From the IMG/VR virus record IMGVR_UViG_3300030329_005603, positions 1 through 39,825 of that record: 39,825 bases of DNA; one strand, written 5' to 3'. Source of the DNA: a virus. The notes under the pieces were generated by a model. The model was not told the origin of the DNA, did no database searches, and saw only the letters and a list, made by a program, of their open reading frames with translations. The stretch's first letter is position 1, and each line of letters begins with the position of its first letter. This document shows, in pieces, positions 5,511-39,422 of the stretch. Both the position numbers and the translations under genes were made by a program.

Positions 5511-5517
5511 GCCTCTC

Positions 5518-5763
5518 CTAATGAACAAAATCTTTAAATAGGCTGCACCATTCCACCATCATGCAATTAGGCTCCCTATCCCGGAGCAGCATTCCGTTGT
5601 ATGCCTTCCCAGATCTAAATTGCAGGAGAAGCATTTCTACACCATCACGGCCCATAACTTTCCATGCCTTTCGAATGTCGTCACCAAATTCCTCGACAAG
5701 AATCCTGTCAAGATCTTCCACTACCCAGTATTGAGCCCCGTTTATATCTACCACCATACTCAT
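5518..5763 (-). CDS. Small hypothetical protein in the replication operon
   Basis: Eighty-one residues. The ATG at 5763 has a near-perfect ribosome site (GGAGGTG) formed by the end of the helicase gene, so a GTG six bases earlier is less likely. The protein is acidic and mixed alpha/beta (MSMVVDINGAQYWVVEDLDRIL), with no motif I can assign. It lies between the helicase and the VRR-NUC nuclease, so an accessory replication or recombination role is plausible but unproven. Confidence 0.7.
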   Translation of the reverse strand: MSMVVDINGAQYWVVEDLDRILVEEFGDDIRKAWKVMGRDGVEMLLLQFRSGKAYNGMLLRDREPNCMMVEWCSLFKDFVH

Positions 5764-5765
5764 AA

Positions 5766-7130
5766 TCACCTCCTCGACCTGGAAACAAAACGCACCATAC
5801 GTCGCTCAATTTCGGCATGAGTCTCTCGCATCTGCCGATATTTCTTTTTTGGCGCGGTCTTTGGTTTCACCTCTACCAGCATCCCCTCCCTGGTAAGTAT
5901 TTCCCTTTTTGTTAGGAGGGGGCTGCCACAGGAGGCACAATTTGTTGCTGTAATTTCGTTTGCGAACCTGCATTCGTCACAAATCTTAGCAAAGATGTCG
6001 CGGTCCACCCCTCTTGGGACACCAGGGGTCCTCTCTCTGGTGGCTATAGACCACTCATTCTCATAGTCCGGTGTCCCTAGACGCAGTACGCATCCCCCGT
6101 GATCTAATACGATATAGTCTTTCTTCCCTGGGTGTGGACGTGCCGCCCGTCCAACCATTTGCAGGTATTTTGATAGACTTCTTGTGGGCACCGCTATTGA
6201 GATCGCCCCGATGGATGTGATGTCAAGACCCTCAACAAGGACCGAGCAATTGCATATCACCTGAATTTCACCAGACTCCAGCCCTGATAGCATCTCTGCT
6301 CTTTTCTCTTTGCTGGTTGTGCCGTCAAGGTGTTCGGCCGCAACTCCAATCTTCCTGAACTGATCTCTAACTCTGGATGAGTGTTCAATTGATGTGCAGA
6401 AAACAATCCCCTTCCTGTCGCCGGCATGCTTTATATATTCGTCTACGACGCCCCCTACGAGCGCCTGACGCTCGTATTGCATTGCAGCGGCCCTGAGATC
6501 GTACTCACCTCGCCTGTCCCTCCTGATGGCTGCTAGGTCGGCCATAGGTATTGAGAAGCATCTTGCCGGAACGAGGCCGGTATTGTTGTTGTGTTTCCAC
6601 ATCTCATTCATCTGAGATACAGTAGGTCCCATAACTAATTTGGTCCCCAGGTTTTCAAATCCCACACCATCCATGCGCCAGGGTGTTGCTGATAGGCCTA
6701 ATCGTGGCACGTCTTTGTAGTGTTCAAGGATGTCTTGGTAGGTTTTCGCGCCACTGAGATGACATTCGTCCATTATTATATATCGCGGTCGTCTAATCGG
6801 CTCTTTGCCGAGGCGATTCCTGAGCGTTTTGACCATCGCTATTTGAACTTGCGCCAGTGGGTTCTTGTTCTTGCCGAATTTGGCGGCGATAATCCCGTAT
6901 TCGAGTCCGAACCGGGAGAGCTTGTCAGCGGTTTGTCTAACAAGCTCATCCCGGTGGACTATCAGAAGCACTGGTCGGCCACTTAGGGCCATGCGGCGGC
7001 ATGGCTCTGCAATTCCGGCAACGGTTTTGCCGGCCCCTGTTGGCATCTGGGCTACCACTCCCAGGTGACCATCAAGGTGGGCTTGCCGGATTTGGCCAAG
7101 CCAGTGCTCCTGATAGGGGCGAAGCTTCAC
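5766..7130 (-). CDS. SF2 DEAD/DEAH-type helicase with C-terminal zinc ribbon
   Basis: Four hundred and fifty-four residues from a GTG that overlaps the upstream stop (GTGA), with GAGGAAG before it. Superfamily 2 motifs are complete: Walker A MPTGAGKT (29-36), DECH at 121-124, LSATP at 146-150, and motif VI QMVGRAARP at 323-331. The arrangement resembles ResIII/UvsW-like phage helicases that remodel replication and recombination intermediates. After the second RecA-like domain there is a zinc ribbon (C383, C386, C397, C400) and a basic tail. The adjoining VRR-NUC nuclease is a frequent phage partner. Confidence 0.92.
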   Translation of the reverse strand: MKLRPYQEHWLGQIRQAHLDGHLGVVAQMPTGAGKTVAGIAEPCRRMALSGRPVLLIVHRDELVRQTADKLSRFGLEYGIIAAKFGKNKNPLAQVQIAMVKTLRNRLGKEPIRRPRYIIMDECHLSGAKTYQDILEHYKDVPRLGLSATPWRMDGVGFENLGTKLVMGPTVSQMNEMWKHNNNTGLVPARCFSIPMADLAAIRRDRRGEYDLRAAAMQYERQALVGGVVDEYIKHAGDRKGIVFCTSIEHSSRVRDQFRKIGVAAEHLDGTTSKEKRAEMLSGLESGEIQVICNCSVLVEGLDITSIGAISIAVPTRSLSKYLQMVGRAARPHPGKKDYIVLDHGGCVLRLGTPDYENEWSIATRERTPGVPRGVDRDIFAKICDECRFANEITATNCASCGSPLLTKREILTREGMLVEVKPKTAPKKKYRQMRETHAEIERRMVRFVSRSRR

Positions 7131-13354: not shown

Positions 13355-13367
13355 CTTAAACCCCTAC

Positions 13368-13438
13368 TAAAAAACCTGGATCATCCCAGGGCCGAAACCA
13401 CCAGCAAAAAATGCTGATGGCTTCTCGCCCTGTTATCA
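13368..13438 (-). repeat. Intergenic terminator-RBS cassette, copy B
   Basis: Homologous over about 70 bases to 14219-14284. On the minus strand it has a 9-bp hairpin arm pair (13398-13406/13412-13420, one mismatch), then the hairpin CCTGG-GATGAT-CCAGG followed by T6, then the ribosome site TAGGGGTTT of the next gene. It fills the whole gap between two genes. Confidence 0.7.
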
Positions 13439-14204: not shown

Positions 14205-14218
14205 AAGAAACCCCTTTC

Positions 14219-14284
14219 TAAAAAACCTGGAAAATCCCAGGAAAAGACCCACCAACAAAAAAGCTGACGAGCCTTGTCCTATGA
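14219..14284 (-). repeat. Intergenic terminator-RBS cassette, copy A
   Basis: On the minus strand, a CTGACGAGCC-type region is followed by CCTGG-GATTTT-CCAGG, T6, and then AAAGGGGTTTC, the ribosome site for the ATG at 14204. It is homologous to copy B at 13368-13438. It is a weak intrinsic terminator placed directly before a start codon. Confidence 0.7.
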
Positions 14285-16457: not shown

Positions 16458-16906
16458 CTGAAGAAAACGCATCACTGGAAGAGATTAAGCCTGCACTCAT
16501 AGTCGAGGGGGTTCTATGCAATAAGATTGAAAGCATGACTGGCGCACTAGAATGCCTCAGAGCGCCAGACCTCCTGGGCATGGACCCAATGACCAACGTG
16601 AGAACGACGTATCATATTATGAGGATTGAGGTTCAAGAGATGGTTGACCTCCTGAAGCCCTATAACCAAGCGTCACTCGCGCCAAAGCACAGACTCGCCA
16701 GACGTCTGTTCAAGAAGTTTCTAAAGCACATGCAAGAGAATGATGTCATGAATACCGAGTTGAAGACGGCCAATGACCCTGTTTGTCTTGCCTTCGCCAC
16801 AGAGGCCGTTAGGTTTATAAAGGCCTTTCATGAGGTCATGCTGGAGAGGAATACTGCCAAGAAACGCACTATGACAACGCAGGTGTATTGTGCCTCCAGC
16901 AATTGA
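16454..16906 (+). CDS. Hypothetical protein upstream of the large terminase
   Basis: One hundred and fifty residues from an ATG with GGAG seven bases upstream. It is mostly helical with a basic patch (KHRLARRLFKKFLKHM) around residues 75-92. It overlaps the large terminase gene by 17 bases. In many phages the gene immediately before the large terminase is the small subunit, and length and helical content fit. No HTH is evident, so the upstream HTH protein remains a competing candidate for that role. Confidence 0.65.
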   Translation: MTEENASLEEIKPALIVEGVLCNKIESMTGALECLRAPDLLGMDPMTNVRTTYHIMRIEVQEMVDLLKPYNQASLAPKHRLARRLFKKFLKHMQENDVMNTELKTANDPVCLAFATEAVRFIKAFHEVMLERNTAKKRTMTTQVYCASSN

Positions 16907-18551
16907 GCTATCTCAGCAAGAGCGCCGCATCGTATGGTTGAAGCGTGAGGTTCATCGATGCAAGATGGATTTTTATTACTTCTGCCGCACCTACCTCAAG
17001 ATTGTTGATAAGAAGAATAAGCTTATTAGTCTACAGCCAAAGCCTTCTCAGAGAGAGTTGATCACGCTTCTTGAGGTCAAGACGATGATCTACAATTTGA
17101 AGGCTCGAAAGATGGGTTCATCCACCGCGATAGCGGCCTACTTCTTTTGGAAAGGACATTTTACAAAGAACCTCCGCACCCTCGTGGCAGCCCATACGAT
17201 GGAGGCAGCCGAAGAGATCTTCCAGATATACTCGAATTTTTATGAGAACCTGCCGGTTTGGCTCAAGCAAGGCCCGTTTTCCCTAAAAAAGGACAATGTG
17301 AGGGCTATGAAATATGAGCATGGAGGTGGGGTCAGGGTGACAACAGCATCGAGCCCATCCGCCCGTGGCGGTACGCCCCATCAACTTCATCTATCTGAAT
17401 TTGCCCACTACACCAACATGGAGGTGACTATCGGGGCTATTATGGCCAGCCTTCCAGACGGATGCACCATCGTAAAGGAGACCACGGCCAATGGACTCAA
17501 TGATGCGTACGCCGCATGGGTAGCTGATGACGGGACCGAAAAAGTCTTCTTCCCGTGGACCAAAGACCCAGACTACACCACCAAAGAAAAGCCCAAGAGA
17601 GTGCCGCCTAAGATGAGGGCTTATGCCAAGAAGCATGGGGTCTCTAAAGAGCAACTCAACTGGGCGGCCACTGCTTTTTATGAAAGATGTGCTGGGCAAT
17701 GGAAACTTTGGGACCAAGAATTTCCGATCACAGCCGAAACAGCGTTTGTAACCAGTGGTGACAAGTTTTTTAGCCTGTCTTTTCCGCACTGCCGTATGAC
17801 GAGGGATAATTATCATGACTATGAAGGATATGTTGAATACGAAAAGCCCAAACCTCACCATATTTATAGTCTTGGCGTGGACGTTGCTTCAGGCTCTAAA
17901 AATGGGGACTATTCAGCTTTTGTGCTATTAGATGTAACAAATAAAAAACGCCCCACATTGGTAGCCTCTAGTTACACTAAAAAGCCACCAGAAGCCTTTG
18001 CCATTGATGTACACGAGGCTGCAAAACGTTTCAACGCCATGACGACCATCGAAATCAATGGCTACGGTCTGTCTGTTGTCAACTATATGGTGCAGAAGCA
18101 CTGGCCACACATGTACAGGCGAACACAGCATAACAAGACGACAGGCCAAACACAGGTGTATCTGGGCTTTTCGACAAACAAGGCTACCAGAGGGCTTATT
18201 CTAGCCCGATTGCATAGTTACATCGAAAAACGAATGATCGATGTCACATGTGACATACGAGTTTGCTCCGAAATAAATCAGATGATTTATAAGAATGGCA
18301 AACCCCAATGCGCTGAAGGTGAGTTCAGCCATGACGATATTTTGATGGCATTTGCCATGGCGCTCGAAGGCATGAGCCAAATATCAAAACTAGAAGAGGA
18401 AGTTAAGTCTAAAAGGCCGAAGACAAGGCAAGAGATCATCCAATGGGAGATGCGAAATTGCCGAATCTTTGACCCCTCAGAATTTGACGACGACTTTATT
18501 GACACGTCACAAGCAGAATCTGTCCTGGACGCGATGGAATCTATCTTGTAG
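16890..18551 (+). CDS. terL: Terminase large subunit
   Basis: Five hundred and fifty-three residues from a GTG start. The ATPase has a Walker A variant KARKMGSST (71-79), Walker B LHLSEF with the catalytic Glu at 170, and a coupling-type KETTANG (196-202). The C-terminal RNase H-like nuclease has GVDVASG (D331), a second Asp at 340, TTIEING (E388) and SHDDILMA (D482/D483). It cuts concatemeric DNA and pumps it into the prohead through the portal. The length is usual for the family. Confidence 0.95.
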   Translation: MPPAIELSQQERRIVWLKREVHRCKMDFYYFCRTYLKIVDKKNKLISLQPKPSQRELITLLEVKTMIYNLKARKMGSSTAIAAYFFWKGHFTKNLRTLVAAHTMEAAEEIFQIYSNFYENLPVWLKQGPFSLKKDNVRAMKYEHGGGVRVTTASSPSARGGTPHQLHLSEFAHYTNMEVTIGAIMASLPDGCTIVKETTANGLNDAYAAWVADDGTEKVFFPWTKDPDYTTKEKPKRVPPKMRAYAKKHGVSKEQLNWAATAFYERCAGQWKLWDQEFPITAETAFVTSGDKFFSLSFPHCRMTRDNYHDYEGYVEYEKPKPHHIYSLGVDVASGSKNGDYSAFVLLDVTNKKRPTLVASSYTKKPPEAFAIDVHEAAKRFNAMTTIEINGYGLSVVNYMVQKHWPHMYRRTQHNKTTGQTQVYLGFSTNKATRGLILARLHSYIEKRMIDVTCDIRVCSEINQMIYKNGKPQCAEGEFSHDDILMAFAMALEGMSQISKLEEEVKSKRPKTRQEIIQWEMRNCRIFDPSEFDDDFIDTSQAESVLDAMESIL

Positions 18552-18589: not shown

Positions 18590-18612
18590 TCGGTCGTAAA
18601 TTGGAGGTTCTA

Positions 18613-19254
18613 ATGTTGGATCAGGATGCACTTGCAGCACAGGCTGAAAAAATCAATGAGACTATTGTCGAGGCGGCCCCCGAGGAAGAGGTAGAGGCGG
18701 CTGTCGAGGCGACTGAGAGCGCAGAGGAGGAAAATCGCATTCCTTATTCGAGACTGCAACAGGCAATTCACGAGCGAAATGAATTGCGGGAGCAGATCGA
18801 TGCCCTCAAATCGCAGAACGAAAGTCTGCGTGAAAGCTCTTTTCTCGATGAAGAGGAGCCAGTTGACCACAACGCACAAGAGTTGAAACAACTCAGAGCA
18901 GAAGTGGACAAAATGAAACAGGCCCAATTTGAAGAGATTCTTCACCAACAGTTCCGCGAAGTGCAATCCAAGTATCCTGGCGTTTCAAAGGAAGAGATCG
19001 TCTTCTACTCAAATATGAGTGAGAACGAATCCCTTACGATGGAACAATTAGGGGAAAAAATCTTTAATAAACGAAAAAATGACGTTGATGCGGCAGTTCA
19101 AAAAGAACTTGAGCGAATAAAGCAAGCTCCCAAACGCGCCAAATCTTCCAGTTATTCGGTCTCCGAATCAGCGTCTAAACCAAAGAGCACCGAAGATCGT
19201 TGGGAACAAATTTACTCCAACGCCAGAAAGAAATTCGGGCTCATGACTGATTAA
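18613..19254 (+). CDS. Scaffold protein
   Basis: Two hundred and thirteen residues from the ATG at 18613 with GGAGG five bases upstream. It is strongly acidic at residues 20-45 (Glu-rich), then forms a long coiled coil (about 50-115), with a basic Ser-rich region near the C-terminus (PKRAKSSSYS). This composition and the place directly before the major capsid gene are typical for phage scaffolding proteins, which guide shell assembly and then leave. Confidence 0.85.
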   Translation: MLDQDALAAQAEKINETIVEAAPEEEVEAAVEATESAEEENRIPYSRLQQAIHERNELREQIDALKSQNESLRESSFLDEEEPVDHNAQELKQLRAEVDKMKQAQFEEILHQQFREVQSKYPGVSKEEIVFYSNMSENESLTMEQLGEKIFNKRKNDVDAAVQKELERIKQAPKRAKSSSYSVSESASKPKSTEDRWEQIYSNARKKFGLMTD

Positions 19255-19265
19255 CGGAGACTATT

Positions 19266-20711
19266 ATGGCCGGTTCAACACTCGACACCATCCAGGCGAT
19301 CCTCAAAGAGGATTACCAAGGTGCTGTCAGAGATCAGCTTCTTCGAGAGGTGAAGCTGTTACAATTATTTAAGAAAGGTAAAACTACATGGCAGGGTAAA
19401 GAGTTTGTTGTAGGTCTCAGGACCGGACCAACAGACGCAATCGGATTTCGTTCAGAGACCGAGACCCTTCCAGAAGGTGGGAATCAATCGTTTGTCCGCA
19501 TCCTAAACAAAGCCAAATTCCTTTATGGTGCGTTTGAGATTGGTGGCCCAGACATCGCAGCCTCCTCTAATGGCGGCTCCATGGCCCTGGCCAACACTCT
19601 TCACGACGAGATGAAGTGGCTGGTGGAGGATATCAAGCATTTCTGTGACAAGGTTATGTACACAGGGGGCCAGACCCGTGGTTTGATTAGCACGACTGGA
19701 ACTCAACTGTCATCTGGAGCCCAAGACACACCGGGCACCCCAATAACCGTTGGCTACACAGGCAGCTTTGAGTACTTCCCAGAATCGGCCGCAACGGCTG
19801 CCGATTGGGTTCGGGTGAAGATTGTTCGTCTTGATAGCTATGTTGATATCGCTTCGTTAACTGCCACTGCTGGTGTTTTCGTTAGCGCATACAACAAGGC
19901 GAACATGACGATCACTTTGCAGATGCAGGACAGCGCCGCTGTTCCCGCCTCAAAGATCTTCAGCTCCACCCCTGGTGACGCTGAAGAAGTTCCAGATGGT
20001 GTTGGTTGTGCAGTTCTTCTGCATGACACGCAGTATGCCGATAGTACTGCGACCAATGTTGGGACCTTTAAGTTTAACAACGGAGCAGCAGGTGGTGGCG
20101 TTCAACCTGGGACTGATGATGCGGAAAAAGAGTTTTCTGGAATTCTGGATAACCTCTGTAATCCAGTTCATCACTCGATCTCTCGTGTTGATGGAGCAGC
20201 CAAGAATGCGGAGGTTCTTCAGTCAACCATCCTGCCTATGGGGGCCACGCAGATAGCTGCTGGTGCCACCCCTGCGTTGGTCGACATCGATCCAGACCGT
20301 ATTCAATACGGCCTGGATACTGTGAGGACTGTTTCTCACAGGGGCGTTGACCTTTGGTTGACCAACCCAATGACCCGCCATAAGTACGTAGCACTTGCCA
20401 CACTTGAGACAAGTGTGCGTATTTCTGGCAAGGCTGGTGGTCTGGATTATGGTGCCAATACCGAGGACCTTGGTTTCGGTGGCGTTCGTATCCAGATTGA
20501 CTCCAACTGCCCAAAGAGCATGCTCATTGGACTTAACCTCTCTTCATGGAGTGTTTACGAGCTAAAAGGTGGCGACTTTGACGACACTGACGGCCGCATC
20601 CTCCACTGGAAAGCTGGAAAAGACCGCTATGAGGGTCTGTGGAAGTGGTACTTGCAAATAATGTGTCATTTCCCGAACAGAAACCTCATCATGTATGGGT
20701 TTGCGTTCTAG
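19266..20711 (+). CDS. Major capsid protein (HK97-fold candidate)
   Basis: Four hundred and eighty-one residues with CGGAGA seven bases before the ATG. An N-terminal helical arm (STLDTIQAILKEDYQGAV) is followed by beta-rich and Gly-rich stretches and a C-terminal FPNRNLIMYGF end. The size, the placement between scaffold and portal, and the FGGVRIQIDSN region late in the protein fit an HK97-like capsid subunit. Insertion-like Ala/Gly/Thr-rich stretches at residues 140-230 may form a surface domain. A hairpin follows the gene. Confidence 0.9.
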   Translation: MAGSTLDTIQAILKEDYQGAVRDQLLREVKLLQLFKKGKTTWQGKEFVVGLRTGPTDAIGFRSETETLPEGGNQSFVRILNKAKFLYGAFEIGGPDIAASSNGGSMALANTLHDEMKWLVEDIKHFCDKVMYTGGQTRGLISTTGTQLSSGAQDTPGTPITVGYTGSFEYFPESAATAADWVRVKIVRLDSYVDIASLTATAGVFVSAYNKANMTITLQMQDSAAVPASKIFSSTPGDAEEVPDGVGCAVLLHDTQYADSTATNVGTFKFNNGAAGGGVQPGTDDAEKEFSGILDNLCNPVHHSISRVDGAAKNAEVLQSTILPMGATQIAAGATPALVDIDPDRIQYGLDTVRTVSHRGVDLWLTNPMTRHKYVALATLETSVRISGKAGGLDYGANTEDLGFGGVRIQIDSNCPKSMLIGLNLSSWSVYELKGGDFDDTDGRILHWKAGKDRYEGLWKWYLQIMCHFPNRNLIMYGFAF

Positions 20712-21125: not shown

Positions 21126-23021
21126 ATGGCTTACTACATTTCTGCTGCGGAAAAAGAATATCCAAGCGATATCGCGGACATTCTGGAGGAGAGCCGGCGC
21201 GACCGCCTTGCTCATGCCGCTGCATGGGACGTTTGCCTCCACTATCTCCAAGGCCATCAGCATCTGGACAGAGATGCGCCAGATAAGAATTGGGTTATCG
21301 ACAAAACCAACCGCAACCGCACCACCACTAACAAAATTCTGCCGATCTACAGGACTGTTGTCTCCAAGCTAGCTGTCATGTACCCATCCATGGGCGTGAC
21401 CCCCGCCTCTGGTAGCTGGGAGGACATTACCAAGGGACTGGCATCAGAGCAGGCGCTTCATTACTACTGGGTTACAGAGAAGCTCAAGTATAAGATTGGT
21501 GTTGAGGCGTCTTCATGGCTGGTCTCTTGCGGCACATGCGGTGTCCACACATATTACGATCCTGATAAAAGCAAGGTAGGGACTGAGATAATCAGCCCGT
21601 ATAATCTGTTTTTTGAGCCAAAAGCTAGAGACCTGGAGCTTTCCAGCTTCATCGCCATTAGAAGCATCCATCATAAAGACGATCTTTGCGCGGCATATCC
21701 TGACCACAAGGATGATGTTGAGAGCGCACCAGAGGCTACGGCAGAAAAATACGGTCATAAGGTGCCGGATGATAGCCGATACCTCTACACAATATACTGG
21801 CGCGATGGCAAATGCGCCCATGTGGTTGGAAATTCTTATGTTTATAAGGGTGAAACGCCATACGGCGTCATGCCGGTTGACATTATCAGATACACCAAAA
21901 TGCCGAATAAGATTTGGGGGATTGGTCTTATTTCGCCGCTTATTGGGCCTCAAGACCAATATAATGAACAGCGCAGCCAGCAACTGCTTTTTATCAGGCT
22001 AAATGCTAATGCACCATGGCTTGCGTCCCGCCAAAGCCAACTTGGCCGCATTACCAACAAGCAGGGCCAAAAGATCTTGTGGTCTGGTCTCGGCCCGGAG
22101 CCCAAGCGTATGGTTCCAGCGAGCCTTCCCAACGATGTCTGGACGAACGTCAATATTATTGAGAAGGAAATGCAGGATATTGCCGGTGTCCACCATGTCT
22201 CGATGGGCCGGTCTGTACCGGCGATCAAGTCTGGCAAGGCCATCGAGGCCATCACCAGCAAGGATGAGGGTCAGCTCAAGATAACCACAGAAGAAATTGA
22301 GATAGCAGTCGCAAACATGTGCCAGACGGTGCTTTGCTACATGAAGAAGTATTACACCAAAGGCTTGATGGTGAAGATGTTTGACCATTATGGTGCCCCC
22401 ATGTTCCGTGAGATAAAAGCCACCGATTTTGTTAGTATACCAGAGGTCCTTGTTCAGCCAGGATCTCTGTTTGCTGCTGATGTTGAGAAAAGGGATGAGG
22501 CCTTGCTTGCCATGCTCGACAGAGGGCTCTTGCCGCCAGAGAAGGTGGTTGAGGAGCTTTCAATGCGTACCGGCAATAAGTTCATCGCTGACAAGATGGC
22601 CGCATTGTCTCATGCCAGGGATATTCTTGAGGCCTGTAAGGTTGGTCTCCTTGTTGAGATTCATCCGTCAGACGACCTGGATTCTTTCAAGAAGGTGTTT
22701 GGGGAGTTCTTGCGCTCAGAGGAGTACTACGTTCCCAAACCAGAGACCCTCAAGTATCTCAATGAGCAGGGTGCTGCTTGGAGCGAGATACAGAAGTATA
22801 TTCGGGATGTATACGTCTCAGTCATTACCTTTGGCCAGGATATTGAGGCGTATCAGGCGCAGAGTTTGGCCAAAGTCTTCCCTAGACAGGACAAGCCTTC
22901 TGAATCGAATGAGGGCTTGGTCGCTACTGGGAGTGACGCCGGCAGGGGGCAGATGATCTCTGAGCAGCAGGCCGGTCATGCGAGAAGAGATGTGCAACAA
23001 ACACCAGAGGTGTTGTCGTGA
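21126..23021 (+). CDS. Portal protein
   Basis: Six hundred and thirty-one residues from an ATG with AAGGAATG before it. The middle region (SPLIGPQDQYNEQRSQQLLF, then a Gly/Pro-rich stretch and a long helix) and the C-terminal helices fit the podoviral (P22-like) portal family, which forms the dodecameric DNA gate. The next gene begins inside its stop (GTGA). The placement right after the capsid module and before the adaptor supports this. The length is normal for short-tailed phages. Confidence 0.88.
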   Translation: MAYYISAAEKEYPSDIADILEESRRDRLAHAAAWDVCLHYLQGHQHLDRDAPDKNWVIDKTNRNRTTTNKILPIYRTVVSKLAVMYPSMGVTPASGSWEDITKGLASEQALHYYWVTEKLKYKIGVEASSWLVSCGTCGVHTYYDPDKSKVGTEIISPYNLFFEPKARDLELSSFIAIRSIHHKDDLCAAYPDHKDDVESAPEATAEKYGHKVPDDSRYLYTIYWRDGKCAHVVGNSYVYKGETPYGVMPVDIIRYTKMPNKIWGIGLISPLIGPQDQYNEQRSQQLLFIRLNANAPWLASRQSQLGRITNKQGQKILWSGLGPEPKRMVPASLPNDVWTNVNIIEKEMQDIAGVHHVSMGRSVPAIKSGKAIEAITSKDEGQLKITTEEIEIAVANMCQTVLCYMKKYYTKGLMVKMFDHYGAPMFREIKATDFVSIPEVLVQPGSLFAADVEKRDEALLAMLDRGLLPPEKVVEELSMRTGNKFIADKMAALSHARDILEACKVGLLVEIHPSDDLDSFKKVFGEFLRSEEYYVPKPETLKYLNEQGAAWSEIQKYIRDVYVSVITFGQDIEAYQAQSLAKVFPRQDKPSESNEGLVATGSDAGRGQMISEQQAGHARRDVQQTPEVLS

Positions 23022-23686
23022 ATGTTGGCGAGCTAACTACCTTATTCAGGGATTATATTGATGAGTCGGATGTAACATTTGTTACCGACGCCAATGTGCA
23101 GCAGTATCTAAAGATTGGCTATGACAGGTTTAGGAAGCTGGTTAATTCTGTAGATGAGATGAGGTATGCGAAGGAGTATGATGCGACGTTTTCTGGCCGA
23201 ACATTCAATTTGGATGGGGTGCTTATGGGTTCGACGGCCCCGGCAGGCAGTCGGCTACAATCCATCTTATCTGTAACGAGCGTGAACTCTGATGGACTTC
23301 CCTTGTATGAGTATGTGGCTGTGTCCAGGCCGAAGGAGCTTGCTTATTATGGAAGCATGCGTTCGGGGGCTAGGGTTGCTCGCTATTATCTTCGCGACAG
23401 GTTGATGAGGTTCGATTCGGAGGTGTCTGGAACGGTTAGGATTACATACATCCCGTACCAGAACATATCATGGTCTAGTTCTAGTGATTATATTGACGAT
23501 TTGGAGCAGTTTCACGATCTAATAGCGTTATTTGCCTACTCGAACTATGCTGTGAGGGATGGTGAGATAAACGAGCCATTAAGGATGCTGTTAGAGGAGA
23601 GGAAGGTTGAGTTCAGAGAGTATTTGATGGAAGGGATGAATAGAGAGCAAAGCCTTTCTGTCCATGACGACCCGGATTGGTTATGA
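23018..23686 (+). CDS. Head-tail adaptor-like protein
   Basis: Two hundred and twenty-two residues from a GTG that overlaps the portal stop by four bases. An N-terminal helical start (MNVGELTTLFRDYIDESD) and a tyrosine-rich middle with an ITYIPYQNI strand are seen. Position and size suggest an adaptor that joins portal to tail, in the manner of P22 gp4 or T7 gp11. This rests mostly on context; I do not see a diagnostic motif. Confidence 0.6.
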   Translation: MNVGELTTLFRDYIDESDVTFVTDANVQQYLKIGYDRFRKLVNSVDEMRYAKEYDATFSGRTFNLDGVLMGSTAPAGSRLQSILSVTSVNSDGLPLYEYVAVSRPKELAYYGSMRSGARVARYYLRDRLMRFDSEVSGTVRITYIPYQNISWSSSSDYIDDLEQFHDLIALFAYSNYAVRDGEINEPLRMLLEERKVEFREYLMEGMNREQSLSVHDDPDWL

Positions 23687-24282
23687 ATGCTGACGAATAT
23701 AATCAGAGACAATTAGACGATGCTGCTGTTGATGGGGCACATATCACGGCGATGGCGACGATCTATCAAGAAGTAAATGGGTTAGAAGTAGATGGGAAAT
23801 TTGGACCGAACACGGCAGCCAAGATTGATAGTAACCACCCTGACAGGGTTGCTCGTGCTCGTAGTGCTGTTGGTAGAGGAACGAAATATGTCCTTGGAAA
23901 GGGAGGCTGGAATCCTCAAGCAGAGCATCCGGGGGCTCAATGTGACTGTTCCGGGTTCGTCTCCTGGGTTATCTCCAAGTCAAGGCATTACAAGTACGGG
24001 AGCCACAGTTGGATTTCCACGACAGACATCTATAACGATGCCCGCGATGGTAATCACCTCTTCCGACAAATCTCAACACCCGAACCCGGCTGCATTGTCG
24101 TCTACGGTGACGCTGGAGGCCGTCAAGGTCACTGCGCCATCGTTACCAAGGTTGACCCCCTCGAAGGGGTTGACTGTTCATCCAGCCAGTCTAAGCGAAC
24201 GGGTGACGCGATAAGCGAAAGGAATCTGACATTCTTCTTGAAAAAGAACTTTATATATGTGGTGCCTTTAGGGGATGACTGA
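23683..24282 (+). CDS. Virion-type NlpC/P60-like peptidoglycan peptidase
   Basis: One hundred and ninety-nine residues from the ATG at 23683, which overlaps the previous stop (ATGA). Residues 22-50 resemble a peptidoglycan-binding domain (GLEVDGKFGPNTAAKI). The peptidase part has the catalytic Cys at 89 in CDCSGF and His at 150 in QGHCAIV. It probably cuts cell-wall stem peptides when DNA enters the host, since it lies inside the structural operon rather than the lysis cluster. Confidence 0.8.
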   Translation: MNADEYNQRQLDDAAVDGAHITAMATIYQEVNGLEVDGKFGPNTAAKIDSNHPDRVARARSAVGRGTKYVLGKGGWNPQAEHPGAQCDCSGFVSWVISKSRHYKYGSHSWISTTDIYNDARDGNHLFRQISTPEPGCIVVYGDAGGRQGHCAIVTKVDPLEGVDCSSSQSKRTGDAISERNLTFFLKKNFIYVVPLGDD

Positions 24283-30376: not shown

Positions 30377-31048
30377 ATGGCTAAGAAGGAAACAGTAGAG
30401 CCAAGGTTTGGCGCAGGGGCTTTTGAAAGGCAGCAGAGGCTGGCTCAACAGCAGATTGAAAACCTGAGAACATCAGCCATGCAGCAAAGAGAGTTTGCCG
30501 ATTCCTATACCCAAAGAAGGGCCGATGCACTTAGCGCCTTCAGAGAAGCCTCCCAACAGGGTATGCAGGAGGCCCGCAGGGCCACTTCAGCCTCCCTGGC
30601 GGGGGCCATTGGGTCTGCTCCACAAACAGGGCTTGGAGCCCGCTATGCGGCGGGCAGGCAGGCGGCAATGGATTCGGGCAACCAGATGGCGGGCTTGGTT
30701 GCCAAGGGGGCTTTGACTGAGGCCCAGCTTGGCGAGAGGTTTTTGGAGCGTCAGAATCTGGCCCGCCAACAGGCATCTAAGGCAGAGACGAAATCTTTGT
30801 CATTTCAGTCGGAGCTTAGTGAGGCCGGAAACAAGAAGGTCCAGGATTATAATGCCAGGATCGATAGGTTGATTGACCAGAAGCAAGGATGGTTGGGTGG
30901 CAACAAGGATGATGTTGCTGATGTGGTAGACCAGTGGGCTTTAATCGAGGGTGACCCAGATGTTCAGAAGTGGCTAATGGACATGTCAGCGGATATAAGA
31001 TCTGGGAAAAGAAAGTTGGGTGGATCTCTTGAGGATCTTTTTGGATAG
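30377..31048 (+). CDS. Helical virion (ejection-type) protein
   Basis: Two hundred and twenty-three residues with AAGGGGG in front of the ATG. Rich in Ala, Gln, Arg and Glu, almost all helical (ERQQRLAQQQIENLRTSAM, GMQEARRATSASLAG). Such proteins are packed in the head of short-tailed phages and leave with the DNA to form a periplasmic channel. The assignment is from composition and from neighbouring larger internal proteins. Confidence 0.65.
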   Translation: MAKKETVEPRFGAGAFERQQRLAQQQIENLRTSAMQQREFADSYTQRRADALSAFREASQQGMQEARRATSASLAGAIGSAPQTGLGARYAAGRQAAMDSGNQMAGLVAKGALTEAQLGERFLERQNLARQQASKAETKSLSFQSELSEAGNKKVQDYNARIDRLIDQKQGWLGGNKDDVADVVDQWALIEGDPDVQKWLMDMSADIRSGKRKLGGSLEDLFG

Positions 31049-31060
31049 GGGGAGCGTAGG

Positions 31061-32974
31061 ATGGCCATTATTGTCGGAAGACGAGACAATAACCCGTTCA
31101 CCAGTGAGGTGGCTGATGTTTACGTTCAGACTGAAACGGCCGGTCAGAAGGTTGCTCGTGATGTCAACACCATAAAGACCGCTGTTGATGTTGTTGGTGA
31201 TATAGGTAGTTTTGCTGGCAAAGCGTTTGCGGCAGGATCGTATCTCTTTGGCGAGGACCAGAGAGAGGTTGCCAGGGCGAATGCTGCCGAAACTGTAAGG
31301 GCAAAGCTAAAGGGTGAGAGAGACGCTGTTATCAGAGGTGGTGCTGCTGAGATTGAGGCGGGGAAAAGGGCTATGGACGAGGCCAGAAAGCTTTACAGCG
31401 AAGACACCGACCCCCAAACACACGCCCCAACAAATCTGGCGGCCAAAGAGGGGCTTGATAAACCATACCCAGACCCAAGCTCTCAGGTCCAAAGGCGTCA
31501 CCCGGTTGATCAAGCGGTGGATATAGCCTCTATAGAGTTTCCTGAAGTCGCCAAGATGGTGGAGGGGCAAACTCAAATCCCACAAGGTCAATTGCAGCTT
31601 TCCAAAGATAAGCTTGTTATGGATACCCCGCCAGATGTAAGTCATCTGGGGAGGGGGATGGCACGACCTAGCGTTTCTATTGCAGATAAGGGTCCTGTTC
31701 CGACATATAACCTAGATGCAGTGGACGCCAGTGGTTATCAAGAGGCTGGCCCAACAAAAAAGATGGCTGCTTATAGAGGTGGAATGCCCACCGTTCAGAC
31801 GGACGAGCAAATAGAGGAAAGGGCAAGGGCAGCAGGTTTGGCGGCAGCGGCTAAAATTATTACGCCCAAAGAAGCCAAACTACAGCTTAGGCAGGCCTAC
31901 CGAGCAGGCGACTGGAAAAAGGCCGAAGAAGTCATGGCCAACCTCCGCACCTCTGGCGGCTATGGCATTCGACCAAAGACATTCTCAGACGTTCTGTTTG
32001 GCACCCACATCACCGCAGCACATGCCGATGTTGAAAAGCTCCTTAATGTAGACAGATGGGCCAATAGAAAGTCGCAGCTCCTGGGTATGCAACTCAAGAA
32101 GGCCAAGACGAAGAATGAGAGGTTGAAGTATAAGAGGGACCTTGCCGAGCACAATGAATGGATGGAGATGAAGGGGCTTAGAAGGCGCAAGGTGGAGGCC
32201 GATGTTGAGGGTAAAGAGACCGGGACCAAGTTAAAGAAAAAGGAACTTAAGTGGTATGATCGAGATAAGAAATCTCAAATCAACTTGAGAAGCTCTAGCT
32301 CCTCGCTTAATTGGATACGAAGGCGAAAAATAGAGAAGATGATGCCGGTAGAGTTTGCCACCAAAGAGTTGGAACATTACGGCAAGCAACTGGATGTGGG
32401 GAAAAAGAGTGTAGAAATGCCATACAATCGAGTCATCAAAATTAAACAAGCGGAGAAGGCTGTTAGAGATGCGGAAGCAGCGGCTATTAAGGCCGAGACA
32501 CAGGGAGAGAGAGATCGGCTTGATATAAGGTTGAAGAGGGCTCAGGCTGAACTTACAGAAATACGCGGCAAGGAAGCTGCGGGTGCCAAAACCAAAAAGA
32601 TTATAAAGTTAGCGGGCGAAAACACCACTAAGGTTGTTCTGTCGAAAGGCAAGATCTTGAGCGGTCTGAAGATGCTGGGTCGGAGTATATCGGCTGAGGA
32701 CGCGGCATTGTTTGCCGACAAGGACTTCGTTTTTGATAAAAGAGAGGGGGCAAGTGGCAGGCCTGAAGACAGAGGGGCGTTCTATAAATATAAGGGGTAT
32801 TGGTATATCAGCCCAGACAAGGTTGGTCACATCCTAACCGTCATTGACGAGGAAAGGAGAGGGGAAACCAGCATCCTCGGCAACAGAAGCGCCCTAAGAA
32901 GACTGAGTTCAGAAATCATGCGCCTAGCCTCATCCATCAACCAAAACAACAAAAACATTCGATCTCTGAAATAG
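31061..32974 (+). CDS. Internal virion protein
   Basis: Six hundred and thirty-seven residues with GGGGGAGC before the ATG. It has an N-terminal Gly/Ala-rich region that could span a membrane (about residues 45-65, VDVVGDIGSFAGKAFAAGSY). Long highly charged helices (Lys/Glu/Arg repeats) run from about 280 to 520. It fits a core or ejection protein. The neighbouring 223- and 2146-residue proteins are similar in nature, so the three may form one DNA-delivery complex. Confidence 0.65.
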   Translation: MAIIVGRRDNNPFTSEVADVYVQTETAGQKVARDVNTIKTAVDVVGDIGSFAGKAFAAGSYLFGEDQREVARANAAETVRAKLKGERDAVIRGGAAEIEAGKRAMDEARKLYSEDTDPQTHAPTNLAAKEGLDKPYPDPSSQVQRRHPVDQAVDIASIEFPEVAKMVEGQTQIPQGQLQLSKDKLVMDTPPDVSHLGRGMARPSVSIADKGPVPTYNLDAVDASGYQEAGPTKKMAAYRGGMPTVQTDEQIEERARAAGLAAAAKIITPKEAKLQLRQAYRAGDWKKAEEVMANLRTSGGYGIRPKTFSDVLFGTHITAAHADVEKLLNVDRWANRKSQLLGMQLKKAKTKNERLKYKRDLAEHNEWMEMKGLRRRKVEADVEGKETGTKLKKKELKWYDRDKKSQINLRSSSSSLNWIRRRKIEKMMPVEFATKELEHYGKQLDVGKKSVEMPYNRVIKIKQAEKAVRDAEAAAIKAETQGERDRLDIRLKRAQAELTEIRGKEAAGAKTKKIIKLAGENTTKVVLSKGKILSGLKMLGRSISAEDAALFADKDFVFDKREGASGRPEDRGAFYKYKGYWYISPDKVGHILTVIDEERRGETSILGNRSALRRLSSEIMRLASSINQNNKNIRSLK

Positions 32975-32981
32975 GTGAAAC

Positions 32982-35900
32982 ATGGCAGAGCCAAATATCC
33001 CAGAGCTTCCAGAGGATTTTGGCGGCAATATCCCCACACTTCCCGGAGAAGATGATGGTGTCCCCTCCCTCCCACCGGGCTTTGACCTGCCAGAGTCCGG
33101 GCCAACCATCCACCAGCCATCCCTATTCTCAGAGGCCCAGTCGGCCATAGAGAGTGGTGTCAAGCCGGAAGAGATGAATGAGGCCTTCAAGAAGGTCTAC
33201 GGAAAAACATTCGATCAGGTAACAGCCATTGTCGGCCCGTTCGCCACGATGCAAGACATATCGCCACCAGTACCAGAGGAGGGGGCCGCCGAACTTAGAC
33301 CGGCAGGCCTGTATCAGCTTGGCCTCCCTGTCGGCCTCCCCGATGAGGCCACCACATTTTCAGAAGGGGACACCCCTGTCTCGGAATTGAAACCAAAAGA
33401 ATACTTCCTCTCCCGCCTCCCTGGCGGCCTATACGGAGCCGTTCCCGGCCTCGCTGGTGGTGCCGCCAAGGCTTTTGCAGAGATGGCGGGGGTGGAGGTT
33501 GGTAAGAAGGGGGCTAAAAAAAGACTCACTCTTATAGAGGATGCAGAGAAGGCGATCAAGGAAGATCTGCTGGATCGAGTCGGCATGGACATGTACAAGC
33601 AGATCGTCACCGATGGTGTCCAGGTCTCAGAGGACCTGTTTGGCTTATTCCTCGATACCATGGGATCAACTCCACCATCCCCCAAGGATAGGGCTTGGGC
33701 GGAAAAGAACCCGAACCTTGGAGGGAAGGGAAATCCCTCCGAGGAATTTATGGCCCAACTCAAGCACAGCTATGACACATGGGAACACATGGTCCCAGGC
33801 ATGATAGGCCTTGCCAAAGCATACTGGGACCTTGGGTCCCGTGGGGCGGTATGGCGTAGGGACGAGAAGCGACCCGAGGGTGTGAGCCAACTGGACCACA
33901 CCATAGAAGGTTATCAGGCGATCCTCTCCCGCCCCTGGACGCTTGCAATGGCCATAGCTCCAGTGCTGAAGGCCGTCAAACTAAGAGCCAGGGCACATGG
34001 TGTTACAGACGTAGCTGCGGAGATGACCAACAAACTAAAGTCGGACCTAAACAAAACTATCATACAAACAAGCGACATAATACGGGCCAAAGACATGCAA
34101 CATCGCGCCTATGCTTTCGACAAGGCCACAGGGGTGCTGAAGGATGTGGGGACTGTTGCATCCCAATTCAATAAATACACATACCTAAGAGGCATGGTGT
34201 ATGGCGATGTGGTTGGTGGAACCGTCACGGGAATGTCAATGGCCATGGCCGATGCCTTCCTCAGACAACGGCTACCAAGGACCAGGATTGGAGCCATGGC
34301 GGCAGATGCCGTGATGAACTTCGTCTTTGACGCAAGGTTCTCCACCGTTGAATCAATTGGCGACAATCTGAACCTTATCTATGATGAGCCGAGGTTCAAC
34401 CAAGCCGCCATAGAGGCGGAAGGGGTGCGTTACGGCAAGCAGATAGAGAAAGGGGAGGGCAAGCTAAGAGTTGTTGGCCCAAAGAAGCCTGGGATTAAGA
34501 TCGATCGCGGCCCGGAACCGACCCCACAAAAGGGAGTGTCATCAAGAACCCCGCCCCCAGAAGCCTTTTCAAAGTCTGGGGCATGGAGCCATCTCACAAA
34601 GGAGCAGAGAGATTTTATTAGGAGTTTCATTCCTAAAGAAGACATGGAGACCTTCGTAAGACACTTGGTCTCTCGACAGGCAGAGCTTATTGCGAGGGCA
34701 GACAGGCCGGTAAGCGTAAGAAATGCAAGTGGTGGCAAGTTAGACCCGTGGACACATGACCCAGACATGCCAAGGACAAAAGTTTCGGGTGATTGGAGAG
34801 CCAGTCTCGATCGAACCATAAAGAACTATGAGGCGGCCCAGCGCCAGAAAAGTATGTTTGATGACGCGGCGTCCATGGAGTACGCAGAGTTTGAGCGTTC
34901 TGAGGGAAGGGTTGTCACGTCGACGGCCGACAGGAGTTCTGTAATTCAGAAGGAAGGGTGGGGCTCGATGCCTACAGAGGCCGCCCAAGCATACAAGGCT
35001 GCACAGCAGGCTGAGTTCGATCTATTCAGGGCCATGGAGGGGGCGAACGAGCTTCGCCGGCCAGAAAAGTCGATACTGGCAACAACCCTGGACCCAATCG
35101 TCCAGGAAATTGCGGATGCTTTTGGGGGGGAGATTTCAATCCTAGACCCCCTTCTTGGGGAGCATGTGCCGATCCCATCTGGCCCAAAGAAGCCCGGAAT
35201 AAAGATTGACCGTGGCCCAGAACTGACCATCAAGACCGATCCCAGCAAAGCACAAACAGTGGCCGGCACCGAACTGCACCCAGAGGGAGCCACATGGAAA
35301 GGCGGCAAGCTGGGCATAGACGCCCCTCCCCCCGCTGGCGGCAAGAAGGCTCCATTCGACGAAGGAGCGATTCAGCGAGGGAATAAGCCATGGGCCGAGG
35401 GCATACCAGGAGCCTCTCAGGACGTGATGAAAGCTCCGGGGGCCAAAAGTAAGGCAGAGTGGATAAAGCGAAAGCATCAGGCCGAGAAGTCAGAGGCGTT
35501 TGAAGGAGCGTTTGGCCGTGGCGGCTCACACCTCCAAAGGGGCTTTGCATCCGAACTTGAGTTTCACCAACACCATGGGACGTTGCCCGGATATATTGAT
35601 GACTTTATCGTCGCATCCTCTAAAAATCCAAAAGGAAGGGAAATCAAAAACAGGCCGGTCGATCCCACCGGGGAAGCGCATGACCATGCCTTTGAGCCAC
35701 CAGCTAGGGGGCAGGACCTCCCCAAGATGTTTGAGTCGCCAGACCATCCTGCGGCAGTCCTGTTCAAAAAAGAACTGATTGAGAGGGTTGGGGAGATAGC
35801 AAAGAAGGTCGAGCAGCCAAGCAAGGCTATCTTGGCCGAAGCAGAGCGACTATATCCAAAACCAAAGCCCACTGGCGGCCCCGAAATGGAAGTAAAAAAA

Positions 35901-38900
35901 TCAGGACGGAAACGCGGTCAAGGAACCATGTTTGCTGGCGACCCTGGCAATACCTACTTCAGAAGCGATGGCAAGATCGTAAAGTCACTGACCCAGGCAG
36001 AGCTGAGTGGCGCTCCAGAAAAGATAACAATCCATAAAGATGCGAAAATCCTAAAAGAGGGCTCCAAAGAATTCCAAGTACTTGTTGGCAAAGACAAGGG
36101 CGGGGACTTTGTAGAAAGGGCCGTTGAGGTGGCCAGGGAGAAGGACTATTCGGTAATTGAGTTCAAAGAGCATGGGGTGGAGATCCTCACAAAGGACGCC
36201 ATTGTCAGTGTTGAAAAAGTAGGCGAAAAAGCAACAGGGGCTGCCCCAGCAGCGGCCAGGAGCCCGGTTTCACTTGATGGCGAAGGAGTTGCCAGGACAA
36301 AGGCCGACTCCACATTTGTCTCAGAAGCTGAGGTCAGAGCGCCAAGGGAGATGAAAGGAAAGGTTAGTGGCGATGTCTCCAATAAATCCAGACTAAACCT
36401 GGATGACAAGGACCCGGGCCTAAAGGAGTATATCCAAAGCAAGAGGATGCAGAAGATACTTCACGTCAACGAGGCGGGAGAGGTCGTTCTCTCACCAACA
36501 GGCGAAAACTTCCAGGTCATCGCCGGCCGACATGTCACATCCAAAGTAATTGGCGGCAAAAGAGTCCAGCGAGAAGGGCTAATGGACTCCCTCAAAGAGC
36601 TTTACGCTCTAGAGTCTACATTCACAGACTCACTTCCCATTGGGGCCAGAGGTAAGACGCTGCCACCAACACGAGAGTATCGGCTTGCAAACAGACTGTA
36701 TTTAGACACGCTGAGAGACAATAGCACCATGCTCTACCATAACGCTGGAGCAAGACAAAGCCTGAAGCTCCAGGCCGCAAAGGATGTTGGCCTTAGCAAT
36801 AAGGCTGCACAAAGGTTCGCCAACAACAGTGACGTTGACGCCACAGTGAGGCAGTTCATTAGAGACTCATTCAAAGAGATGGGTAAGATTGAGGAGGGTA
36901 AAAGAGTACAGTTTCAAGATGTGTCCATCAGGTTTGAAGGCAAGACCATCTCCCTGACAGATGATGCTGGACCAGCGTTCGTTAGATTCATGCAAAAGCA
37001 TAGCCCCAAAGAGCTTGCGAAAATTCAAGGGGCTGCGGCGTCTACCTTCTTTGAGGGTCTTGCTAGGAAAAACGCCAAACTTACCTTCCTTCGACAGGTT
37101 GGAAAGATGATTGACGAAAGGTCAGCGTCAAAAATAGCCCTCGACATGATCAACGGTAAGGCGATCCCAGCCATCGACCCAAAGGTAACCAGACAACAAC
37201 TGAGGGTCGAGCTAGATGCGCTGAAGACATCGGGGCGATTCAGTGAGGCACAGAAGACACAAGCTGAAATGATGTACAGCAGGCTCGTTGAGACCAAGCT
37301 AGATCTAAACCAGCTTAGGAAGCAGATTCAAGAGGAGGTGTTTCCCGGTAAAGAGCCAGAATTTTTGAACCTTGCTGGCAAATGGAAAAATGGCATGCTG
37401 GTAGACAGGCAGCTTAACTGGGCCATCACCGCGATGAAACAAGTCCATTCAATAGTTGACGCCCATATATATTTAAAAACGACGATGGGGATCCACAGGG
37501 GGATGAAAAAGTCGTTCGCAATGAAAAACCCATCAACAGTCGTTCGCAACGCAGCACAGGCCTCATTCATGATTATGATGGAAGAGGGCCGTGGAATATC
37601 TCTTGTAGGGGACTTCTATAAATTAGCCAGGTTCTGGAAAAGATATCTGGACGGCGAGGAGATGTCCCCGAAAGACCTGCGTAGAGCCCGAATCTTCCGC
37701 GACTCTGGCGGCCACGACGTAGACCATGCCGTCGCTGAACTGGGGGATGTCTTTCGCGGGCACTTTGATGATCCAACAGCGACCAAGGTTGGTAGAGCGC
37801 TCGGTAAGGCCGGCACCTGGGCGGGAAAAATCTCAAAGGCCGGGGAGTTCCCATACAGGGCCGGCGATGCTGGGCCTAGAGCCTATAAGATGTTCAAGAC
37901 CATCGACACACACATCAACTACCTTGAGAGGCTGAACCCTGGTGAATATGCGACAATGGCCATCAGTCCAAACAAAAGCGTGACCTTGTTCAAAAATAAG
38001 GACGGCACCTTCACCATGAACAACAGGAAGCTCTCCAGGAAGCAGCTTGATAAGGTGATTGGGAAGGCGGCGAAGGCCCCCGTCGATCTTAATGTATTCG
38101 ACTATGGGGATGTGCCTCTTGGTCAGAGGCTCCTCAGAGAAATGCCGGTCATTAGCTCCCTCTATCCAACTTGGATCACAAAGGCCGCATTCGGCAACAG
38201 AAAGAGCCTCCCCATATCAATGATTGACGCGACTGACGGCATCAACTTCATAACCAACAACAAAGGCATAAATATAGAGATGTCTAACGCCGCCGCAGCC
38301 CTGTCTGTCAGGCGAGCCATCTTCTTCAGCTTCCTGCAATCCCTGGAAAGTGACCCAGATAAATTCGACATGTCCAAACTGCGACCACTCATGGGCTTCG
38401 ATCTGTCATCCGGTGTTATTGGCAGTGCTGTTATGAGACCGGAGAGCTTCCAAGGGAAGAAGACAACCGTCAAACAATTCGGCCTATCCAGCGCCAACAA
38501 CATGGAAGGCTTGGCCATGGTAATGCGGATTGGGGAGTCTATGGCAGGACTGCCAAGATATCTTATGGAACTCGGCCTCAATGACACACAGAAGCTCAAA
38601 AGGTACGACAAAGAACTGGCCGAGCTTTGGGACAAAAAGGGCAAGACCAAGGCCGAGATAACTAGAATAAACAACATGAAGGCATTTTGGGCCAGAAGGA
38701 GAATGTATGACCCAAGACGGGACGTAAGAACCCTGCTCGCCCTCGCTGGCGGCCCCATTCTTGACGCATTCGCCTTTGACATGGAGAAGCGTAACAGGCT
38801 ATCGGCGTACAAAGAAGATAAGATCCAGAAAATGATGTGGAAAGGACTTTTGACGGGATACATTGAACCCATCAGAGAGTACCTATTCGTCAACAGGAAG

Positions 38901-39422
38901 GAATTTGTAGATCGCCCGTTCGATGACTATCGAATGACACCATCCAAACACATGGTGGATCAGATAACAGGAGTCGCCTTCAAGACCGCCGTCTATGGGG
39001 GTGACAAGGATGCCGCCAGATATAATAAGAAGCAAATAATTGAGTCGCTGAATGCTTCAATTACCGTCGCGGCCAGGAAAAGGGAGAAGGAAGCAGAGAA
39101 GAACCTTGTGAAGGCCAAGCGGTCCAAGAAGTCTGCATTGCTGGAGAATGCCCGCACACCAGGGAAGAACGACATCTCAAAATTTGATAAGAGAATTGAG
39201 GACGCAAGGACTCTGCTGAAAACAAAGCAGCAGATCCACCAACACGCCCAGAGATATGTCGCCGCCCTAGATCGCTATTGGGAAGAAAGGCTCCAGGATT
39301 TCTATAAAGAACTGAGAACTAAAACCATGGGGAAGTATGGAAGCGGCAGAGAGAGGAGCAGGAGGCCCGATAGGATAAAGAACGTCGGGGCACCAAAGCA
39401 GGGGATCAGGATCGAGCGGTGA
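32982..39422 (+). CDS. Giant internal virion / polyvalent protein, 2146 residues
   Basis: The largest gene of the window, from an ATG with AGGTG before it. A Pro-rich start with repeated xPxLP motifs is followed by charged helical regions. A 14-residue motif GPKKPGIKIDRGPE occurs at 499-512 and 734-747, and a relative closes the protein (2136-2146). Residues about 980-1080 have a pattern like phage ADP-ribosyltransferase/polyvalent domains (VAREKDYSVIEFKEHGVEIL). Residues about 1510-1600 (NPSTVVRNAAQ) recall large-polyvalent-protein associated domains. Such giants are co-ejected with DNA in podoviruses. The domain calls are tentative; virion location is likely. Confidence 0.75.
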   Translation: MAEPNIPELPEDFGGNIPTLPGEDDGVPSLPPGFDLPESGPTIHQPSLFSEAQSAIESGVKPEEMNEAFKKVYGKTFDQVTAIVGPFATMQDISPPVPEEGAAELRPAGLYQLGLPVGLPDEATTFSEGDTPVSELKPKEYFLSRLPGGLYGAVPGLAGGAAKAFAEMAGVEVGKKGAKKRLTLIEDAEKAIKEDLLDRVGMDMYKQIVTDGVQVSEDLFGLFLDTMGSTPPSPKDRAWAEKNPNLGGKGNPSEEFMAQLKHSYDTWEHMVPGMIGLAKAYWDLGSRGAVWRRDEKRPEGVSQLDHTIEGYQAILSRPWTLAMAIAPVLKAVKLRARAHGVTDVAAEMTNKLKSDLNKTIIQTSDIIRAKDMQHRAYAFDKATGVLKDVGTVASQFNKYTYLRGMVYGDVVGGTVTGMSMAMADAFLRQRLPRTRIGAMAADAVMNFVFDARFSTVESIGDNLNLIYDEPRFNQAAIEAEGVRYGKQIEKGEGKLRVVGPKKPGIKIDRGPEPTPQKGVSSRTPPPEAFSKSGAWSHLTKEQRDFIRSFIPKEDMETFVRHLVSRQAELIARADRPVSVRNASGGKLDPWTHDPDMPRTKVSGDWRASLDRTIKNYEAAQRQKSMFDDAASMEYAEFERSEGRVVTSTADRSSVIQKEGWGSMPTEAAQAYKAAQQAEFDLFRAMEGANELRRPEKSILATTLDPIVQEIADAFGGEISILDPLLGEHVPIPSGPKKPGIKIDRGPELTIKTDPSKAQTVAGTELHPEGATWKGGKLGIDAPPPAGGKKAPFDEGAIQRGNKPWAEGIPGASQDVMKAPGAKSKAEWIKRKHQAEKSEAFEGAFGRGGSHLQRGFASELEFHQHHGTLPGYIDDFIVASSKNPKGREIKNRPVDPTGEAHDHAFEPPARGQDLPKMFESPDHPAAVLFKKELIERVGEIAKKVEQPSKAILAEAERLYPKPKPTGGPEMEVKKSGRKRGQGTMFAGDPGNTYFRSDGKIVKSLTQAELSGAPEKITIHKDAKILKEGSKEFQVLVGKDKGGDFVERAVEVAREKDYSVIEFKEHGVEILTKDAIVSVEKVGEKATGAAPAAARSPVSLDGEGVARTKADSTFVSEAEVRAPREMKGKVSGDVSNKSRLNLDDKDPGLKEYIQSKRMQKILHVNEAGEVVLSPTGENFQVIAGRHVTSKVIGGKRVQREGLMDSLKELYALESTFTDSLPIGARGKTLPPTREYRLANRLYLDTLRDNSTMLYHNAGARQSLKLQAAKDVGLSNKAAQRFANNSDVDATVRQFIRDSFKEMGKIEEGKRVQFQDVSIRFEGKTISLTDDAGPAFVRFMQKHSPKELAKIQGAAASTFFEGLARKNAKLTFLRQVGKMIDERSASKIALDMINGKAIPAIDPKVTRQQLRVELDALKTSGRFSEAQKTQAEMMYSRLVETKLDLNQLRKQIQEEVFPGKEPEFLNLAGKWKNGMLVDRQLNWAITAMKQVHSIVDAHIYLKTTMGIHRGMKKSFAMKNPSTVVRNAAQASFMIMMEEGRGISLVGDFYKLARFWKRYLDGEEMSPKDLRRARIFRDSGGHDVDHAVAELGDVFRGHFDDPTATKVGRALGKAGTWAGKISKAGEFPYRAGDAGPRAYKMFKTIDTHINYLERLNPGEYATMAISPNKSVTLFKNKDGTFTMNNRKLSRKQLDKVIGKAAKAPVDLNVFDYGDVPLGQRLLREMPVISSLYPTWITKAAFGNRKSLPISMIDATDGINFITNNKGINIEMSNAAAALSVRRAIFFSFLQSLESDPDKFDMSKLRPLMGFDLSSGVIGSAVMRPESFQGKKTTVKQFGLSSANNMEGLAMVMRIGESMAGLPRYLMELGLNDTQKLKRYDKELAELWDKKGKTKAEITRINNMKAFWARRRMYDPRRDVRTLLALAGGPILDAFAFDMEKRNRLSAYKEDKIQKMMWKGLLTGYIEPIREYLFVNRKEFVDRPFDDYRMTPSKHMVDQITGVAFKTAVYGGDKDAARYNKKQIIESLNASITVAARKREKEAEKNLVKAKRSKKSALLENARTPGKNDISKFDKRIEDARTLLKTKQQIHQHAQRYVAALDRYWEERLQDFYKELRTKTMGKYGSGRERSRRPDRIKNVGAPKQGIRIER

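Follow-up and report, generated by a model that had tools for sequence, protein, structure and literature searches.

What could be the role of a short peptide that occurs twice, residue for residue, in a very large phage protein that is otherwise unrecognisable? The window analysed here is the whole virus record IMGVR_UViG_3300030329_005603 (39,825 bases), a single genome on which all the findings are based, and its last plus-strand gene (32982-39422) encodes a giant protein of 2146 residues containing two exact copies of the 14-residue peptide GPKKPGIKIDRGPE. The loading and ordering of very large internal proteins by podophages are poorly understood, and a constrained repeat in a protein of this kind offers 14 defined residues with which to attempt pull-down or to search among uncultured relatives.

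Gene Context of the Giant Protein

The late cluster is encoded on the plus strand in the order large terminase (16890-18551), scaffold-like protein (18601-19254; a weak Phage_scaffold match below the cut-off, located between the terminase and capsid genes), major capsid protein (19266-20711; phrog_14242, E 4e-19), P22-type portal protein (21126-23021; PF16510, E 2.7e-17), CHAP-domain lysin (23677-24282), tail proteins, a 223-residue protein (30377-31048), a 637-residue protein (31061-32974) and the giant. Since the giant closes a cluster that encodes a P22-type portal and follows two smaller orphan proteins there, which is the place of a P22-like ejection protein, we infer from its gene position that it is an internal (ejection-type) virion protein. 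The 637-residue neighbour is a candidate second ejection-type protein and the 223-residue neighbour, by its position, a candidate third. Sequence and profile searches of the giant (limits E up to 0.001 in PHROGs and 0.05 in Pfam) gave no Pfam, PHROG or PDB-sequence match, nor any match to known ejection proteins, and the catalytic and associated domains of polyvalent proteins were not detected in it with PHROGs and Pfam.

No relatives of the giant were found by peptide scans and motif-pattern scans of viral contigs or by tblastn against 50,697 phage and 72,556 plasmid records. The nearest relatives of the phage, L003 (IMGVR_UViG_3300020411_001777) and L004 (IMGVR_UViG_3300020428_001932), with terminases 84% and 64% identical to that of the window, respectively, have the same gene order wherever they overlap with it, and both contigs end short of the giant gene, as do four more distant contigs (L010-L013, terminases 37-39% identical). 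Together with the present phage these six contigs form a small, rarely sampled phage group, and the conserved portal and terminase used as queries against bacterial genomes gave no match. Among distant relatives, Microbacterium phage Shocker, ctEqG8 and ctLwi270 encode a similar portal and capsid and have a very large gene close to where the late cluster ends; self-comparison of these three giant genes revealed no comparable repeated linker motif.

The left third of the window consists of minus-strand genes. A replication block (2132-7130, minus strand) comprises a Prim-Pol with a D5-type helicase (2132-4411), a VRR-NUC nuclease just below the cut-off (5058-5528) and a ResIII/DEAD helicase (5766-7130). 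At its left end the window cuts through an open frame on the minus strand (1-723), of which 241 residues are present, including a glycine/serine-rich stretch; a terminal repeat was looked for and not found. The record may thus be either incomplete or circularly permuted. Two similar 5' leaders (13355-13425 and 14206-14276, minus strand) lie directly upstream of neighbouring minus-strand genes whose ATG starts are at 13354 and, for the second, at about 14204; this second gene is weakly DUF932-like, and the ORF listing assigns to it an earlier TTG start that would overlap its leader. Two hairpins form in each leader (z -4.7 and -3.6). One has a 13-bp stem that pairs in both copies although the sequences of its arms are not the same in the two; the other is formed by CCUGGGAUNNUCCAGG and is followed by six U and then by a ribosome-binding-like AGGGG. 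No Rfam match was obtained for the leaders, and no third copy was found in the window or in the fetched loci. The pair has the appearance of a regulator or attenuator in a duplicated leader.

A Repeat Maintained at the Protein Level

The two exact copies are located at 34476-34517 (residues 499-512) and 35181-35222 (residues 734-747), plus strand, in frame 1 of the ORF. The codon comparison confirmed what an earlier note on this DNA had described, a 14-residue repeat with zero residue changes and seven silent changes in 42 bases: all seven differences are at codon position 3 and all seven are synonymous. In self-comparison of the giant the repeat scores 80, against 43 +/- 4.5 and a maximum of 63 in 200 shuffles of the protein, and is thus far above chance. 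Similarity between the copies spans 16 residues (GPKKPGIKIDRGPE-P/L-T; 49 nt) and stops abruptly on both sides, with flanks that share nothing, which marks the repeat as a discrete element rather than the product of a domain duplication.

If changes were random, all seven would be silent with a probability of 5e-5 to 3e-4 at transition/transversion ratios from 1 to 8. With seven changes on about 10 synonymous sites, pS between the copies is 0.70, near saturation and similar to the values of 0.67-0.79 obtained for whole genes between this phage and L003, its nearest relative. In the five virion proteins that these genes encode, 16-31% of the residues differ between these two phages (dN 0.11-0.25). 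The motif has 32 non-synonymous sites, on which these rates, if the age is similar, predict some 3 to 7 replacements, and 0 are observed. The comparison rests on only about 10 synonymous sites in one genome, a small sample with a clear direction. The selection at the protein level implied by the earlier note was borne out by the absence of replacements against seven silent changes, by the pS of 0.70 and by the shuffle test, and constitutes strong evidence that GPKKPGIKIDRGPE is held by selection on the protein sequence. The peptide is probably functional, since none of its amino acids was lost although the bases changed at most silent positions.

A role of the repeat as nucleic acid was rejected because every difference between the copies is at the third position of a codon. 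The antisense frame across the repeat is also nearly conserved (SGPRSI[L/F]IPGFFGP); this was considered a by-product of wobble positions that coincide there, and this frame shows one replacement versus none in the sense frame.

A Probable Third Copy and the Linker Setting

Translation of the giant confirmed that it ends in the related motif GAPKQGIRIER (39387-39419, plus strand; residues 2136-2146), as had been noticed before, which aligns to GPKKPGIKIDR of the exact copies. In shuffled proteins a match of this quality has P = 0.0012 for the C-terminal window and 0.14 for an equal match anywhere. At the DNA level the match to copy 1 runs over 26 aligned bases and lacks one codon (P = 2e-4 relative to random codons); its score is not reached by any of 2044 other gene windows. 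Against copy 2, P is 0.02. Altogether, these data suggest that GAPKQGIRIER is probably a third, degenerate copy of the motif.

The profile search supported no further copy in any other protein of the window. The segment GMARPSVSIADKGPVPT in the 637-residue neighbour (31655-31705, plus strand) resembles the extended copy 1 (P = 0.003 with a 16-residue copy-1 query) and was rejected as a fourth copy, with P of 0.13 when the 14-residue motif was used and support neither from DNA nor from the profile. By the profile search, the neighbouring ejection-like proteins have no supported copy of the motif.

Within the giant, both exact copies are at the 98th percentile of a disorder-propensity scale and at the 94th-97th percentile of proline plus glycine, in surroundings rich in proline, glycine and lysine and poor in hydrophobic residues. 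Structure predictions made without an alignment are too poor for use as a whole (mean pLDDT 42 and 39); in one such poor model the 219-residue stretch between the exact copies (34524-35180, plus strand; residues 515-733) is the only part with pLDDT > 70 and displays long helices, a helix-rich character that is suggested by this weak prediction together with composition. The picture drawn from the models and from composition is that of modules joined by flexible linkers, with the exact copies at predicted module boundaries.

Possible Functions of the Motif

As is typical of short linear motifs, the peptide is discrete, falls within 3-20 residues, lies in unrelated flexible contexts and was kept as protein while silent sites changed. 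Its location in linkers and, probably, at the C-terminus would suit a cargo-loading or capsid-targeting tag, in a protein that is by gene order a putative virion protein. Two of the roles proposed by the earlier note, an assembly tag and a linker recognised by another virion protein, both fit this location as read from the sequence. It can be tentatively hypothesized, with a probability of about 0.4, that GPKKPGIKIDRGPE is a multivalent short linear docking motif that packages or positions the giant in the head, the virion role being that suggested by gene position. The two or three copies in each giant, each at a flexible site (behind modules 1 and 2 and, probably, at the C-terminus), would bind the same site on one multi-copy partner, which may be the scaffolding protein, the coat protein or the portal; the scaffold-like protein and the major capsid protein of the window are candidate partners. 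Several weak contacts would load the giant into the prohead or position it there, and, as these contacts would be able to release, the modules could exit through the tail like beads on a string. This reading is weakened by the absence of a supported copy from the neighbouring ejection-like proteins, of a comparable motif from the giant genes of the three distant relatives, and of sequence likeness to known packaging tags. If shown to be a loading tag, the peptide could be transferred to other proteins as a signal for directing them into phage heads.

The location of both exact copies at module boundaries would also suit a structural linker or an intramolecular contact, in which the peptide folds back on the giant or joins giant copies and thereby sets the spacing of modules. 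IKID added as a beta-strand to a neighbouring module would be one example. The core GIKIDR alternates polar and apolar residues, and no supported copy is found outside the giant. A plain spacer, however, need not keep every residue over near-saturated silent divergence, and the flanks of the two copies are unrelated; this explanation is regarded as unlikely. The same protein-level conservation, in a peptide that is basic, short and accessible, could instead reflect docking on the host side, where after ejection of the giant, which is conceivable by its position, the motif would bind a host protein, a membrane or nucleic acid and its copies would give avidity. This would be improbable, as ejection is itself putative and no peptide similar to the motif was found in solved structures.

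The arrangement of a motif that ends two modules, and probably the third, resembles a fusion of three proteins that share one tail sequence and recalls a processing site at which the giant would be cut into separate mature proteins, and polyvalent phage proteins can indeed be processed (PMC5512222). This proposal of the earlier note did not find support: apart from the cell-wall lysin (CHAP), no peptidase domain was detected in the scanned ORFs of the window, and HExxH is absent from every frame of 100 or more codons. Cleavage by a phage-encoded protease is therefore disfavoured, although a host or unrecognised protease might act. A cut at the probable copy that closes the protein would also set nothing free, and processing is decidedly doubtful. 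Short homology with abrupt ends, together with a probable C-terminal copy that is degenerate, would be expected if the motif were left over from module shuffling, as a short linker that was duplicated, marks points of module insertion and has little function of its own. At a pS of 0.70 several replacements should then have accumulated, and the 14 residues have 0, which makes such a relic quite improbable as well.

Comparison With Known Systems

Several systems offer precedents for a docking motif in an internal virion protein. Encapsulin cargo, T4, P22 and N4 are all unrelated to the giant in sequence, and known packaging tags have no sequence likeness to GPKKPGIKIDRGPE; the resemblance would lie in how the motif may work and not in membership of any of these systems. 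Phage polyvalent proteins are very large, multidomain, possibly carried in the virion and amenable to processing (PMC5512222); the giant is likewise very large and apparently composed of many modules, and, unlike them, yielded no Pfam or PHROG domain.

The virion RNA polymerase of N4 (gp50) is described as a giant internal protein organised as beads on a string with long linkers (PMC12633501), and another report cites, as unpublished data, that its C-terminal domain is required for encapsidation (PMC4496689). The giant would share with it the condition of a very large internal protein with many modules and flexible linkers, as its gene position and composition suggest. In contrast to N4 vRNAP, with which it has no sequence match, the giant shows no sign of a polymerase, and the available portions of these sources describe no repeated linker motif for the N4 protein.

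For the ejection proteins of P22, loading needs the scaffolding protein (PMC8402733). The gene of the giant, like those of gp7, gp16 and gp20, is located in a late cluster with a P22-type portal. Unlike the giant, these proteins have no repeated linker motif described in the accessible part of that source, and no sequence or profile similarity between them and the giant was detected. P22 ejection proteins are also much smaller than the giant.

The same source indicates that ten residues of T4 IpIII suffice for packaging, the capsid targeting sequence at the IpIII N-terminus being, as the present motif might be, a very short peptide that brings an internal, ejected protein into the prohead (PMC8402733). 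T4 is a myovirus, and its tag differs from the present motif in being N-terminal, single and of unrelated sequence. The T4 tag is cut off by the prohead protease, whereas no prohead protease was found in the scanned ORFs of this phage.

The closest layout is that of the terpene-cyclase cargo of Family 2B encapsulins, in which a short Gly/Pro motif occurs in disordered stretches, both between domains and at the C-terminus, and is proposed as a possible signal directing cargo to a shell of HK97 fold (PMC8346489). In the geosmin-synthase-like cargo the motif GPTGLGTSAAR separates the two cyclase domains and recurs at the C-terminus; the authors state only that motifs of this type may function as targeting sequences (PMC8346489). 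The encapsulin motifs differ from the present one in that they have no sequence relation to it and belong to a bacterial nanocompartment, not to a phage. On this analogy, it is conceivable, although rather unlikely, that GPKKPGIKIDRGPE is a multivalent tag, placed between domains and at the C-terminus as in encapsulin cargo, that loads the giant onto the head shell. If this were true, such a tag would represent a packaging code that connects the ejection proteins of phages with the cargo of encapsulins.
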